This document shows positions 27,183-35,223 of a stretch of DNA of 58,477 bases, one piece after another. The DNA comes from Nitrosarchaeum sp. (GTDB taxonomy: Archaea > Thermoproteota > Nitrososphaeria > Nitrososphaerales > Nitrosopumilaceae): contig JAHFUX010000001.1 of assembly GCA_023264875.1 (NCBI GenBank), forward strand, positions 28,638 to 87,114, in the 5' to 3' direction. A model generated the notes under the pieces. It did not search any database. It had not been told where the DNA came from and was given only the letters and a program-made list of their open reading frames with translations. How positions within the stretch are numbered: the first letter of the stretch is position 1; the number at the start of each line of letters is the position of its first letter. The position numbers were made by a program, and so were the translations under genes.

Positions 27183-28934
27183 CTAAAACAAGTTGTTTGC
27201 AAGTTTTTTCAAGGCTGAAATCTCTTCTTCTTCTTGTCTTATTTTTTTATCTATGACTCTAAGCATTGAATCATTCCATACATGTTGTGAGAAGAAATTA
27301 TGTTTTGTATTTGCCAATTCTATTTCATCACCTACTATAGTGTCTTCTAAAAATTTAGTCACTATGACATCTGCAATTTTTAAAATTCTAGCATTTAGTT
27401 TAAAACTACGAAATATTGGTTCCATTTTTCTTACATCATTTTTAAAATCTCCTTTGGTTTCTATGATTTCTTTATGTAAAATTCTAAAGTAAACTCCAAC
27501 ATAAAACAAAGTTGCATATCTTTTTGTTTTATGTCCACCTTGTTTTCCATATTTCAATGTCTTTTTTGCATACTCTTTGACAAGATATGGATAAAGTAAA
27601 ATTCTGTAATCGTCTTTTAGATTGTCATTGAATATGTCATCATATTTGCTTCCTCTTGGAAGGAATTGAGCTGGAGAACTATATGCTTCTGTAGGTCTTT
27701 GTTCAATTCCAGCTACAAGAGCCTGAATTGCATCTTTTGCTACAATTACTTTTTTGTGATTATCTGGAAGATACTCATTGTATATGGAATCTCCTTCGTA
27801 TTCTGATTGTCTTGATTTTGATTTTGTATCAAACGATCCTGCTTGAATCTCATAAAAATATCCACAATTTTTTAGTTGTGATTTAATGGATTTATGAAAA
27901 TCCATTAATGAAACAAGATCTTTTCCTCTAACTGAATTTTGTGAGTTTCTGTATTTTGTAATGTTATTTTGTTCTTGTTCATCATCTGCTTTGATTATAG
28001 TTACTGTCATAGAACCATCCATGTTTTTAGTTCGTTTTGAATGATCAAGGATTGAATTAGATGTTTGTGCACCGTTTACAATTTGTGGTGCATAGAGTTC
28101 AATCATATTATCTCCTAATTCTTCAAAATCACTAACTACAATTGTAATTCCATTGTTATAATAGAAAAATTTTCCTGGATTACTCTGAAGCGTTTCTCGT
28201 AGTCCTTTGTTTACCGTTGTTTTAAATTGCATCCACTGTCTGATATTTGATTCAAAAACATAATCCTTATTCTTGTTGACAAATTCGGTTAGTTCTCTTA
28301 ATTTCAAAATGCCAAGAATTGTATTATCATGTCTAAGCATTCTTTCTAATTTTATTGATGATCTTTTTCCAGCAGCAGGTTTCTTTATTCGCTCCCATAA
28401 TTTTTGAATGATCTTGTCAATGTCTATGATTTCAATTAGATCGTCTTGATACTCCACTTTTTGATCTGTCACATAGCAGCATTTTATTTTTAGATTCTTT
28501 TCCTTGATTTTTGTAACAAGATGTGCTAATTCAGGCCTCATCTTTGTTACGTCTTTTCCAAGCAAACGCTTTGCATCTTCTTTGAATTTGGCAATCGCTT
28601 CAAATGAATGAGATGTTCCATATTTTGATTGAAATAGACGAATAGTATTATCTGAGAAATCTACTGGAAGGTATGCATCAATACCAAGATCATTTGCACC
28701 ATCAACAATTGCATCTGCTGCATCATCTTCTGTAGCCTCAAAAACTCGCGTGAGAACCCATTGAAGAAAATTATTGCCTTTTTCTACCTCACTTTTTGAA
28801 TTTTCAGCATATTCTTGTATGCTTCCTATGACATTTTCTGAAAATCCTTCTAAAGGTATACTCGAATTTTTTTGAGTTAATAGAGCATGTGAACCTGGAA
28901 TGTACTCTAATAATCCACTACCGTTTTGAGCCAA
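27183..28934 (-). CDS. AIPR family protein (abortive infection phage resistance)
   Basis: A 583-residue protein. The first part (about residues 70-130) contains DGANDLGIDAYL followed by LFQSKYG, a restriction-endonuclease-like D...QxK core. The AIPR domain includes KFFYYNNGITIVV (about 260-272), APQIVNGAQTSNSIL (about 289-303) and ITKYRNSQNSVRGKDL, its most conserved stretches. AIPR proteins occur in phage-defence loci, often with restriction modules; here it stands alone. The start is the ATG behind an AT-rich gap shared with the cupredoxin gene. Defence is inferred from the family, not shown. Confidence 0.88.
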   Translation of the reverse strand: MAQNGSGLLEYIPGSHALLTQKNSSIPLEGFSENVIGSIQEYAENSKSEVEKGNNFLQWVLTRVFEATEDDAADAIVDGANDLGIDAYLPVDFSDNTIRLFQSKYGTSHSFEAIAKFKEDAKRLLGKDVTKMRPELAHLVTKIKEKNLKIKCCYVTDQKVEYQDDLIEIIDIDKIIQKLWERIKKPAAGKRSSIKLERMLRHDNTILGILKLRELTEFVNKNKDYVFESNIRQWMQFKTTVNKGLRETLQSNPGKFFYYNNGITIVVSDFEELGDNMIELYAPQIVNGAQTSNSILDHSKRTKNMDGSMTVTIIKADDEQEQNNITKYRNSQNSVRGKDLVSLMDFHKSIKSQLKNCGYFYEIQAGSFDTKSKSRQSEYEGDSIYNEYLPDNHKKVIVAKDAIQALVAGIEQRPTEAYSSPAQFLPRGSKYDDIFNDNLKDDYRILLYPYLVKEYAKKTLKYGKQGGHKTKRYATLFYVGVYFRILHKEIIETKGDFKNDVRKMEPIFRSFKLNARILKIADVIVTKFLEDTIVGDEIELANTKHNFFSQHVWNDSMLRVIDKKIRQEEEEISALKKLANNLF

Positions 28935-29775: not shown

Positions 29776-29836
29776 TGTTTTCTCTTTTCTTTTTTCCGAT
29801 AAAAGATTGTGAGTAAAAAAATATTACTAAGAAATC

Positions 29837-29846
29837 GATTTATACA
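29837..29846 (+). promoter_or_regulatory. TATA box for tatD-like gene
   Basis: GATTTATACA is centred about 27 nt before ATG 29869. It supports that ATG over the more upstream GTG at 29809. Confidence 0.55.
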
Positions 29847-29868
29847 GACTATTTTGAAAGTTAAAGCA

Positions 29869-30624
29869 ATGACTTGGTTATATGATTCTCATATTCATTT
29901 GTCCGATCCAGACTATCAATATGATTTGAATCATACAATCAAAGGAATGGAAAATATGAAAATCAAAGCATGTTGTGTATCGATGGATAATATGACCTCT
30001 AAAAGAACTTTGGAGCTTGGAAGAAAGAGCAAACTTATCTTGCCTTTTATTGGAATTCATCCTGAACGTGCAAATGATGATCTAGAACTGATGATAAATC
30101 TAATTAGTGAAAATCAACAACATATTTCTGGTATTGGAGAGATTGGATTAGATCCTACGTATGTAAAATCTAACGAAGATAACAAAAGGCAAATACATCT
30201 TTTTGAATCTCTTCTCTCTCTTGCAGAAAAAATCCAAAAACCTATTTCAATTCATTCACGGAAAAGTCTTGATGATATATTTTCTATAATGACTTCTTAT
30301 GACACTAAGCATGCGTTACTACACTGGTTTGATGGAAGCAAAAAACAACTTCAAAAAGCAATGGACATGGATTTTTTTGTTTCCTATGGCCCTGTTATGA
30401 TTTATGCAAATGACAAACAAATACTATTATCTGAAACATCTGAGGCAAAAATTCTTGTTGAAACAGATGGCCCTGTAAAATTCTCAAAGTGCTTTGAAAT
30501 GAAATCTGGGCAAATTAGTTTTATTCCAAGTGTTGTGTTTTGTGCCTCAAAAATACTAGGTAAGTCATATGATGAAATGACTTCATTATTAGAAGAAAAT
30601 TCAAAGACATTCCTTCGAATATAG
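29869..30624 (+). CDS. TatD family metal-dependent hydrolase
   Basis: TIM-barrel amidohydrolase-fold nuclease. The metal-binding DSHIHLSD opens the domain, IGIHPER and GIGEIGLDP follow, IHSRKS supplies another ligand, and the barrel ends with ILVETDGPV. From ATG 29869 it has 251 residues. The frame is open to a GTG at 29809, but the additional 20 residues precede the typical start and lie across the TATA box. Family members act as DNA exonucleases in repair; the exact substrate here is unknown. Confidence 0.9.
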   Translation: MTWLYDSHIHLSDPDYQYDLNHTIKGMENMKIKACCVSMDNMTSKRTLELGRKSKLILPFIGIHPERANDDLELMINLISENQQHISGIGEIGLDPTYVKSNEDNKRQIHLFESLLSLAEKIQKPISIHSRKSLDDIFSIMTSYDTKHALLHWFDGSKKQLQKAMDMDFFVSYGPVMIYANDKQILLSETSEAKILVETDGPVKFSKCFEMKSGQISFIPSVVFCASKILGKSYDEMTSLLEENSKTFLRI

Positions 30625-30655: not shown

Positions 30656-30976
30656 GTGGATAGAATTAAGCGTCTTTCTTATGAAGTACTAGATGGACAC
30701 AAGCCAAAATTTGGAGAAGATTTTGTTGATAATAAGAAAGTATTAGATCAAATAGCTATAATTCGTTCAAAAGGGCTAAAAAATGAAATTGCAGGCTATA
30801 TTACTAAATTTATTAAAAAAGAAAATCGTGAAGAAAAAGCAAAACAATCTCAAATAGAATCTTCTAGAATTGAAAATTATACTTTGGAAGAGAAAATTTC
30901 TGAGGATGATACCATTGAAGAGGAAGTCATTGCAATAACATCTAACACAGAAACAAGTGAAGATACAGAAGAATAA
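30656..30976 (+). CDS. rps17e: 30S ribosomal protein S17e
   Basis: Archaeal/eukaryal small-subunit protein. The core (1-60) contains MDRIKRLSYEVLDGH, FGEDFVDNKKVLDQ and KGLKNEIAGYITKFIKK, matching eS17. A C-terminal extension of about 45 residues, very rich in Glu, Asp, Ser and Thr, is absent from most archaeal S17e. The GTG start at 30656 follows GAGGA, and a GTATAAAAA box lies about 25-30 bp upstream. Confidence 0.9.
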   Translation: MDRIKRLSYEVLDGHKPKFGEDFVDNKKVLDQIAIIRSKGLKNEIAGYITKFIKKENREEKAKQSQIESSRIENYTLEEKISEDDTIEEEVIAITSNTETSEDTEE

Positions 30977-31027: not shown

Positions 31028-31801
31028 ATGATAATGATTAAACTTGTAGGGGGAGCAAAAAAGTCATTTTCTACTGATACACTAAAAATTGATAAATCTG
31101 ATATACACATTCACGATCTTATTGATTTACTATTGGAACTAAAACCTGTTAGTACTCCTAACCTAGACATTGAAAATATATTGATCGCGATTAATGGTGT
31201 TGATTCTTCTGCTCTAGAAGGAAAAATGACTAAAATAAAGAATGGCGATGTAGTAAGTATAATTCCTGTTATTCATGGAGGCTCACCTAAAAGACTAATT
31301 TTCAATGTTTCCAACAAATTAGTTCAGGTAATTGAAATTCAAGGTCAAAAACAAATTGACATTACTTATCTTGATACACTCAGAAAGCAATTTCCTGGAA
31401 TTATACTTCAGGCCATATCTAGTAATTTTATTTTAAATAATTATCATCTGAAAAAAATTATTTCTTTATCTGTTTCTTCTGATAAAAATGACATTTTACT
31501 TTCAAACAAATTTGAAATGGATATTTTAATGCGCTTTGCTATTTCTTCCCAAATTTCTTCTGCAATTAATTCTGCTGGAATCAAACCAAACCAAAACTTT
31601 GTATTGATTGCTTTTGGCAATAAAAAAATATTGGATGCACTTTACAAAGAATTGAGTTTTATGTCTGTTAAAATATTCTCAAAAGATAATACTTCATTCA
31701 TAAAAAAATATTTTCAAATAACAGATAAACAACTTGATGTAGTTTTATCAGAAAATCCTCTTGAAGATATACTAATAGAAAAGGCTGCTATTTTACTCTG
31801 A
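31028..31801 (+). CDS. ubiquitin-like (MoaD/ThiS) domain fused to Cgi121-like KEOPS subunit
   Basis: The N-terminal 86 residues are a beta-grasp ubiquitin-like domain: a first strand IMIKLVGGAKKSF, ILIAINGVDSSALEG, then NGDVVSIIPVIHGGS, ending in GG (84-85) followed by more protein rather than a free C terminus. Residues about 95-257 resemble Cgi121, the KEOPS subunit that binds tRNA for N6-threonylcarbamoyladenosine (ISSNFILNNYHLKKIISL, KFEMDILMRFAISSQISSAI, AGIKPNQNFVLIAFG). The Sua5 gene for the first t6A step is on the opposite strand 500 bp away, so a t6A role is well supported by context. The reason for the fusion is unknown. Confidence 0.8.
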   Translation: MIMIKLVGGAKKSFSTDTLKIDKSDIHIHDLIDLLLELKPVSTPNLDIENILIAINGVDSSALEGKMTKIKNGDVVSIIPVIHGGSPKRLIFNVSNKLVQVIEIQGQKQIDITYLDTLRKQFPGIILQAISSNFILNNYHLKKIISLSVSSDKNDILLSNKFEMDILMRFAISSQISSAINSAGIKPNQNFVLIAFGNKKILDALYKELSFMSVKIFSKDNTSFIKKYFQITDKQLDVVLSENPLEDILIEKAAILL

Positions 31802-32314
31802 TATACTTCTCTTAGTTTTTTCTACGCTCAAAACATCACCTTTTTTGACAATTGCAATTCCTGTTTGATTTCCCAACACTTCAATTAATATAATTTTATC
31901 AGGGAATTCTAATGATACTTTATTTTTAATTTTTTTTGCTATTCTAGAAATTAATTCTTGACTTGAAATGTTAGAATTTCTTTTCTCAATTGATATTCTA
32001 TATGACTCTTCATTAGAAATCAATTTAATTAAGTCTGAAATTCCATCTTCAATGCTCTCAATCTTAGTTTCTGTAATTTTTTGAATAGGGATTATTCTAA
32101 GACAATATCTAATACACCATGGCTCATCCAGTAACATTTCTTTGATTTTTTTTATAACCCCAATTGATTCCAATTTTGTTTCAGCAGTCAAAATTCCAGA
32201 CATGTTTGTGATAGTTATTTCAGGTTCCGAGTCTCCTATTTTTTCTAAAATATCTAATAATTCTTGTCTGGTTTCTGATTCTAAATGTCTGGCACATGTA
32301 ATTATTAGATTCAA
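31793..32314 (-). CDS. THUMP domain protein, TAN1-like
   Basis: A 173-residue protein starting MNLIITCARHLESETRQEL and ending with the RNA-binding THUMP region (SYRISIEKRNSNISSQELIS, KVSLEFPDKIILIEVLG, TGIAIVKKGDVLSV). TAN1/THUMPD1-type proteins work with Kre33/NAT10 acetyltransferases to make N4-acetylcytidine in tRNA; an acetyltransferase is not in this window. It overlaps sua5 by 4 bp, so the two tRNA-modifying genes are translated together. The end is convergent with the ubiquitin-like/Cgi121 gene, overlapping by 9 bp. Confidence 0.88.
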   Translation of the reverse strand: MNLIITCARHLESETRQELLDILEKIGDSEPEITITNMSGILTAETKLESIGVIKKIKEMLLDEPWCIRYCLRIIPIQKITETKIESIEDGISDLIKLISNEESYRISIEKRNSNISSQELISRIAKKIKNKVSLEFPDKIILIEVLGNQTGIAIVKKGDVLSVEKTKRSISE

Positions 32315-32910
32315 AGTATTTTCAAGATCTCATTTCGTGTTAAAACTCCTTCTCTGTGAATTTTCAATTTTCCTTCTTCAAATTCAATTATTGTTGATTC
32401 TCCCTCACTTGTTATTGTTCCACCATCCAAAAAAAGATCAAAATCATGAATATTCTGATAACACTCTTGTGGGTTTGTAAATGGACCAGTTCCAGAAATA
32501 TTTGCGCTTGTTCCAATAACAAAATCACATTTTTTTAAAAGTTCTAATGTACATTGATGTTTTGGAACTCTAATTGCAATTTTATTTACCCCATTTAGTG
32601 ATGCTTTAAGTTTTCCGTCTATTAATTTTAAAATTAAAGTTAGAGGTCCTGGCCACATTTTCTGTGCAATCTTTTCTGAATCTTTGTCAAACTCTACAAT
32701 TTTTGCTGCAACATCTTTTGAAAAAGCTAAAATTGGAAGTGATTTTGAGATTTCTCTTGATTTAATTTTGTAAATTTTTTTAATTGCTTCATTATTGTAT
32801 GGATTACAACCAATTCCATACACCGTATCTGTTGGAAAAACAACAATACCGCCATTTTTGATTATTTCACTTGCTTTTACAATATTTTCTTTATTACACT
32901 TTAATTTCAA
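32311..32910 (-). CDS. L-threonylcarbamoyladenylate synthase (Sua5/TsaC)
   Basis: Makes threonylcarbamoyl-AMP, the donor for tRNA t6A37. The 199-residue YrdC fold starts with NGGIVVFPTDTVYGIGC, has the substrate-contacting KSREISKSLPIL motif, KMWPGPLTLILK, and IAIRVPKHQCTLELL with TSANISGTGPF. It lacks the C-terminal Sua5 domain, so it is the short TsaC/YrdC type. The TAN1-like gene overlaps its end. A KEOPS Cgi121-type subunit is encoded opposite. Confidence 0.94.
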   Translation of the reverse strand: MKLKCNKENIVKASEIIKNGGIVVFPTDTVYGIGCNPYNNEAIKKIYKIKSREISKSLPILAFSKDVAAKIVEFDKDSEKIAQKMWPGPLTLILKLIDGKLKASLNGVNKIAIRVPKHQCTLELLKKCDFVIGTSANISGTGPFTNPQECYQNIHDFDLFLDGGTITSEGESTIIEFEEGKLKIHREGVLTRNEILKIL

Positions 32911-34483: not shown

Positions 34484-34765
34484 ATGAGTCGAATTTGTAC
34501 AAAATGTAAAAACTCTATCCTTGATAATGAGGAACTTGACATGGTTGCTGAGAAATACCCAGTTTGTAACAAGTGCTGGACTGAATGGAAAGAATATCGT
34601 GTAATGGTGATGAATGAAATGAGACTTGATATGTCTATGGCAGATCATAGAAAATTATTGAAAAAACATGAAAAAATCTTTGCAGGCGTACTTTCTCCTG
34701 AAGGAGAAATAGTCGACTATACTAATGAAGACAATAGAAAACCCGATAAACTTCCAGACGCCTAG
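34484..34765 (+). CDS. YggX-like Fe(II)-trafficking protein with zinc finger
   Basis: From ATG 34484 the protein has 93 residues. Cys5/Cys8 and Cys28/Cys31 form a zinc-finger-like knuckle. The second part (W32-x2-W35, NEMRL at 44-48, then DHRKLLKKHEKIF) resembles YggX, which has W-x2-W...NE-RL...R-L-M--F and links iron or oxidative stress to Fe-S clusters. Fusion of a CxxC finger to that helix pair is unusual. A frame open from 34361 adds 41 hydrophobic residues without family match and is rejected. The last 4 bp overlap the convergent gene. Confidence 0.65.
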   Translation: MSRICTKCKNSILDNEELDMVAEKYPVCNKCWTEWKEYRVMVMNEMRLDMSMADHRKLLKKHEKIFAGVLSPEGEIVDYTNEDNRKPDKLPDA

Positions 34766-35223
34766 AACTTCAAGTATTTTTTTGCATTATCTGGTATAAC
34801 TATCATTAATTTTCTTTTTTGCTCTACATCAAGTTCAATAACTATTTTCTTGATTGTTTGTGAAAGAATGTCTTTTTTTCCTTCATCTAATGTTAAGAAA
34901 ATCTCTAATATTCCATCTAAATTAAATGCAATTAATTTTTGTGGAGATTCAGAAATCTCATTAATGTAGCCAGCAAATAACCCATTTCGCTGTTCTTCTG
35001 ATAGTGTAGTTAAGATCTCTAACCATGTTTTGAAAAGTTTTGCAAAATTTGGAAAAGGAATTGTAGGTCCAGCTTCCAGAGCATTATTGATGATTTCTTT
35101 TCTCTCTACTTCTGTCATTGAGAAAAATTCCATCATTCTTTTTTTCAAAACAGGTATTCTAAGAAAATCTGGAAGATTTGCCAATATTACTATAATATTT
35201 CCTGCATAATTTGGTTCTGCCAA
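34762..35223 (-). CDS. conserved hypothetical protein
   Basis: A 153-residue all-helical, soluble protein with repeated Leu/Ile heptads and charged surfaces (IVILANLPDFLRIPVLKKRM, KIVIELDVEQKRKLMIVIPDN). No cofactor or catalytic motif is evident. It might be a scaffold or regulator. It is divergent from purA with an 80-bp promoter gap. Confidence 0.7.
   Translation of the reverse strand: MAEPNYAGNIIVILANLPDFLRIPVLKKRMMEFFSMTEVERKEIINNALEAGPTIPFPNFAKLFKTWLEILTTLSEEQRNGLFAGYINEISESPQKLIAFNLDGILEIFLTLDEGKKDILSQTIKKIVIELDVEQKRKLMIVIPDNAKKYLKF

Follow-up and report, generated by a model that had tools for sequence, protein, structure and literature searches.

A Urm1-type ubiquitin-like domain fused to the KEOPS subunit Cgi121 in Nitrosopumilaceae: a probable precursor with an invariant internal diglycine

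Organization of the locus and of the fusion protein

The window (the whole stretch of 58,477 nucleotides of Nitrosarchaeum sp. DNA that was analysed, from the genome referred to here as G000) contains a gene whose product joins a ubiquitin-like (Ubl) domain of the Urm1/ThiS type to a Cgi121 domain (Table 1). The Pfam ThiS model matches residues 18-85 (E-value 1.1e-6) and the CGI-121 model residues 128-254 (E-value 1.1e-5), both above their curated cut-offs, with the Urm1 model slightly under its cut-off (E-value 8e-4), and the match to the NCBIfam KEOPS Cgi121 model NF011465 is strong (E-value 1.6e-50). A profile built from 34 fused relatives is similar to the Cgi121 structures of M. jannaschii and P. 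furiosus and to human TPRKB, and also to Urm1/MoaD structures. The AlphaFold2 model has two well-folded domains (mean pLDDT 93, pTM 0.67), its weakest stretch being the junction block of residues 81-90 that contains HGG|S (mean pLDDT 70), and Foldseek places the first domain with Urm1, SAMP1 and MoaD and the second with Cgi121 and TPRKB (E-values to 3.5e-9). An earlier note, made from the letters alone, had seen a beta-grasp domain and a Cgi121-like domain in this one ORF and had named structure prediction as a check; domain models, profiles and predicted folds all concur with it, and both folds are found where it had placed them. By its beta-grasp fold and HGG diglycine the first domain belongs to the Urm1/ThiS type. 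The diglycine, at residues 84-85 (31277-31282) as the same note had it, is internal and followed by Cgi121, and so the translated protein does not itself end in a free diglycine.

Table 1. Features of the fusion gene and its surroundings (positions are those of the window)
Feature	Position	Strand	Evidence or remark
TatD-family hydrolase, kept neighbour upstream of S17e	29809..30624	+	Pfam TatD_DNase 1.2e-47; synteny
Ribosomal protein S17e, kept upstream neighbour, 51 bp gap to fusion gene	30656..30976	+	Pfam Ribosomal_S17e 1.7e-18; synteny
Ubl-Cgi121 fusion gene	31028-31801	+	Single intact ORF, 257 aa, ATG start
Urm1/ThiS-type beta-grasp (ubiquitin-like) domain, residues 1-85, end IPVIHGG	31028..31282	+	Pfam, profile and fold matches, AlphaFold2
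HGG codons CAT GGA GGC, residues 83-85	31274..31282	+	68/68 fusions; third-position steps
Predicted cleavage Gly85|Ser86	between 31282 and 31283	+	Cut inferred
KEOPS Cgi121 domain, residues 86-257 and stop	31283..31801	+	Pfam, NF011465, PDB profile alignment, Foldseek, invariant columns
THUMP-domain protein, convergent, 3′ end overlaps fusion gene by 9 bp	31793..32314	-	Pfam THUMP 6.2e-8
Sua5/TsaC-type L-threonylcarbamoyladenylate synthase, short form of 199 aa, overlaps THUMP gene by 4 bp	32311..32910	-	TIGR00057, Pfam

The tRNA CCA contacts of M. jannaschii Cgi121 include Gln71, Ile72 and Gly80, and in a profile alignment with the PDB structure these correspond to Gln175, Ile176 and Gly184 of the fusion; Met60 is likewise kept (Met164), Lys56 is replaced by Asn160 and Phe21 lies outside the alignment. 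Archaeal Cgi121 proteins (MJ0187, PF0523) thus have the fold and these CCA-contact residues in common with the fusion, but have no N-terminal Ubl, and the lysine at position 56 of MJ0187 is not shared. Since the three contact residues are kept, the Cgi121 half appears from its sequence to be functional.

The neighbours identified in the earlier note as Sua5 and THUMP genes hold up under model searches, the former with E-values of 1.1e-47 (TIGR00057) and 4.4e-50 (Pfam Sua5_yciO_yrdC). A scan for consensus promoters and terminators of the bacterial type gave nothing above chance. Elsewhere in the window, near histone and cupredoxin genes, an AIPR-domain protein, of a family whose name refers to abortive infection, is encoded at 27183-28934 on the minus strand (Pfam PF10592, E-value 5.7e-59), and a 153-aa ORF on the same strand (34762-35223), between a DUF7521-like gene region and adenylosuccinate synthetase, has no Pfam match at an E-value of 0.001.

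Fused and split genes within the class

The Ubl-Cgi121 fusion is itself already known: Makarova and Koonin (2010; PMC2948915) found it, with S17 as a neighbour, in every thaumarchaeon sequenced by that time, and proposed regulation by SAMPylation or a link with tRNA modification. The fusion described here agrees with theirs in class of domain order, lineage and S17 neighbour; split genes in other families, precursor processing, the invariance of the GG and the absence of a free Ubl are added here. In a literature search for Cgi121 with Urm1 or Ubl fusions in archaea, which left subscription papers mostly uncovered, no later study of the function of the fusion was found.

The protein is matched in 229 of 250 genomes of the class, whose families are designated here by code, f1 being the Nitrosopumilaceae-like family of the window, to which Nitrosarchaeum and Nitrosopumilus are the closest named relatives. 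With few exceptions the f1 matches are full-length fusions, so that nearly all relatives within the family are fused. Mostly, the other families have Ubl and Cgi121 as adjoining genes in a TatD-S17e-Ubl-Cgi121 block that is convergent with THUMP and Sua5 genes, and this split arrangement within the same block, seen in several families, is new here. Of the split Ubls, 21 have HGG as their very end and 14 continue for 1-9 residues beyond it. Families other than f1 also contain fusions, namely f17, f19 and, within f3, part of genus g26. The state changes about seven times on a tree built from Ubl and Cgi121, an approximate figure since the tree is quick and has many weak branches, and two of the changes, in single f1 genomes, are possibly sequencing artefacts; the fused state seems to have more than one origin. 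In one of these cases (G106) natural fission is doubtful, as a single additional A in a stretch of five would account for the change of frame. Genome G028 has an in-frame TGA right behind HGGA and is retained as a possible fission, represented by a single genome. Five loci of genus g22 in f3 (L059-L063) have a Cgi121 gene with no adjoining Ubl, and these genomes carry a ThiS-family gene elsewhere.

The earlier note had proposed a search for other fusions, and had allowed that the two parts might always be separate genes joined here by a sequencing error. Several other families do have them apart, but 68 relatives share the fused state, which is real and conserved; neither chance nor an assembly error can therefore account for it, and an error joining two genes is ruled out.

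The diglycine and the enzymes that could act on it

The HGG motif is kept in all 68 fusions, and the residue after it is free to vary (serine in 38, alanine in 16, threonine in 4, and others), a pattern that is new here. The glycine codons are themselves diverse, with GGA 23 times, GGC 21, GGT 16 and GGG 8 at the first glycine and GGT and GGC 26 times each, GGA 12 and GGG 4 at the second. By parsimony on the tree there are no amino-acid steps at the H, G and G positions, and the third positions of the two glycine codons have 29 and 26 silent steps. The four residues behind HGG have 18, 32, 28 and 25 amino-acid steps, and the range over nearby downstream positions is 18-35. Only 10 of 254 well-filled columns have no amino-acid steps, the median being 16. 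Selection thus ends sharply past the second glycine, given the absence of steps at HGG and the many at the next residues. A further 74 fusions from contigs of relatives all have HGG and were left out of these counts because one of the scan patterns contained HGG. The invariance of the GG could instead mark another use of the loop.

These figures bear on two alternatives. It is very improbable, in our estimation, that the fusion merely reflects neutral read-through between neighbouring genes, with no special coupling and the GG kept by chance or because of a recent origin: where they are split, the two genes lie side by side in the same orientation, so that loss of a stop would be easy, but the fusion is old (relatives extend down to about 38 % identity), its HGG is unchanged and none of the 68 fusions has a decayed motif. 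That the fusion stays uncut, its Ubl being a permanent adaptor, regulator or stabiliser of KEOPS and the GG a mere flexible hinge, would fit its long persistence across nearly the whole family, the good folding of both domains side by side with a short junction in the AlphaFold2 model and the CCA-binding residues retained in the Cgi121 half. We nevertheless regard this as unlikely, since a hinge need not be an exact HGG, unreplaced over many silent changes beside a freely changing residue, and free archaeal Urm1, such as that of Saccharolobus islandicus, likewise ends in HGG, as do many of the Ubls encoded by split genes. An internal start that yields free Cgi121 is unlikely as a rule, a methionine being present within 20 residues behind the GG in only 13 of the 68 fusions.

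Complete f1 genomes for which all matches were listed have two places matching Pfam ThiS, the Ubl-Cgi121 fusion and the N-terminal Ubl of E1, and since these account for both matches no free-standing Ubl gene is seen by Pfam in these genomes, although a divergent one might escape the model. Complete f1 genomes of this kind have no free-standing Ubl by Pfam and no MoaE, yet keep E1, JAMM and usually NcsA, a combination that is also new here. The E1 proteins of f1 are about 450 aa long and their N-terminal Ubl, at the loci read (L116-L119, L090 and L091), ends AVAGG directly before the E1 core, so that this second Ubl is embedded too. An E1 gene lies directly downstream of Ubl-Cgi121 in genome G032 (L086), which belongs to a distant family within the class. 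In G000 (61 contigs, about 97 % complete) neither E1 nor NcsA was found; both are present in complete genomes of the same genus. Of 30 genomes, 28 have an NcsA-type thiolase; the NcsA model TIGR00269 has no match in G044 (one contig, 99 % complete), which does have E1, JAMM and the fusion and whose NcsA has either been lost or diverged. MoaE was found in none of the 15 f1 genomes searched, so that the Ubl does not serve the usual enzyme of molybdopterin synthesis, and a molybdopterin synthase (MoaD-MoaE) role is rejected. Of the KEOPS partners, G000 has Kae1 and two genes of the Pcc1 type.

Two JAMM metalloprotease genes with intact E/HSHP/PSxxD motifs, JAMM-A and JAMM-B, are present in G000 and also in most of its relatives. 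JAMM-A is similar to the haloarchaeal desampylase model NF041370 (E-value 4.9e-16, below the model cut-off). A JAMM gene adjoins S17e-Ubl-Cgi121 at one locus of the class (L070), and in genome G246 (L230) a JAMM of a different subtype adjoins a ThiS-family gene. JAMM-A was recognised from its sequence in some genomes and from its score rank in the others. On that basis 45 of 46 genomes whose Ubl is fused or tailed have it, against 12 of 20 whose Ubl ends exactly; the comparison has too few informative independent pairs once relatedness is corrected for, and we do not accept the correlation as proof.

The fusion as a candidate precursor

Activation of a Ubl by E1 requires a free C-terminal glycine, and the internal GG therefore cannot serve E1 activation uncut. 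Processing past Gly85 is the simplest reading, because no other Ubl was found, E1, NcsA and JAMM are kept and HGG does not change. We accordingly consider it fairly probable, on sequence evidence and by analogy, that the product is a bifunctional precursor, cut after the GG by a desampylase-like JAMM to release a Urm1-type carrier or modifier and Cgi121. The cut, the identity of the protease and the use of the freed Ubl are what we infer here. The earlier note had offered an adaptor, a conjugation link or a stabilising module with no choice among them and had mentioned cleavage at the GG just as something to check, and the comparison favours the GG-processed precursor. One gene would encode the Urm1-type Ubl and then Cgi121 with no stop between them, and JAMM-A is the putative protease that would cut directly behind the invariant HGG. 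The freed Ubl, its diglycine now exposed, would be activated by E1 and would act as a sulphur carrier, probably in NcsA-type thiolation of the tRNA wobble uridine, as a protein modifier (urmylation), or as both, and the freed Cgi121 would join Kae1-Bud32-Pcc1 in making t6A37. The fusion would in this way couple the supply of two anticodon-loop modification factors, much as ubiquitin-ribosomal protein fusions do. Those eukaryotic fusions also have an N-terminal Ubl, an internal GG and a translation-related partner, and yield free Ubl by processing. They differ from the present one in that here the Ubl is of the Urm1/ThiS type, the partner is a KEOPS subunit and the predicted protease is a JAMM enzyme, and as fusions the two are not homologous.

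Comparable proteins are known to be cut. MoaX, the MoaD-MoaE fusion of Mycobacterium tuberculosis, is cut at Gly82|Ser83, and the cut is required for activity (PMC4326299); HvJAMM1 cuts SAMP1-MoaE exactly past the GG, both in vitro and in vivo (PMC4443979); and SAMP precursors of Caldiarchaeum are substrates of CsJAMM (PMC6043591). MoaX and SAMP1-MoaE resemble the fusion described here in having an N-terminal Ubl and an internal GG before the partner, and most of the fusions here have GG|S as at the MoaX cut site, the cut here being predicted; the partner in those proteins is MoaE, the gene missing from the f1 genomes searched, and here it is Cgi121. The same systems lend something to the idea of partial cleavage as a regulated switch, with an uncut pool in KEOPS and a cut pool in E1 chemistry: MoaX leaves residual uncut protein, which has been read as slow or regulated cleavage (PMC4326299), and in Haloferax the attachment of SAMP1 switches MoaE off reversibly (PMC4443979). 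The linker of the fusion has no conserved residues that would hint at such tuning, and we think a switch of this kind unlikely, slightly more so than a permanently uncut protein.

As regards the fate of the Ubl if the precursor is processed, the Urm1 of the Sulfolobales is a ThiS-family Ubl with an HGG C-terminus as here, but is a free mature protein, and Makarova and Koonin gave an S17 neighbour for it too (PMC2948915). When S. acidocaldarius Urm1 was placed in yeast it was conjugated, but did not support tRNA thiolation, and because of this failure the modifier role of the freed Ubl may be the main one.

For the Nitrosopumilaceae as a whole, we put at about even the chance that every Ubl exists only in embedded form (Ubl-Cgi121 and Ubl-E1). 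JAMM cutting would then be needed for all Ubl chemistry, and the carrier for tRNA thiolation or protein tagging would be stoichiometrically tied to a KEOPS subunit, in an archaeal parallel to the ubiquitin-ribosomal protein fusions. The comparison yields a sharp question, namely whether the fusion is cut at Gly85. If it is not, these archaea would have a variant of KEOPS with a built-in ubiquitin-like domain. If it is, the supply of a Urm1-type carrier would be tied to KEOPS, two pathways of anticodon-loop modification would be joined, and the logic of ubiquitin precursors would be present in a globally abundant archaeal group, the ammonia oxidisers.
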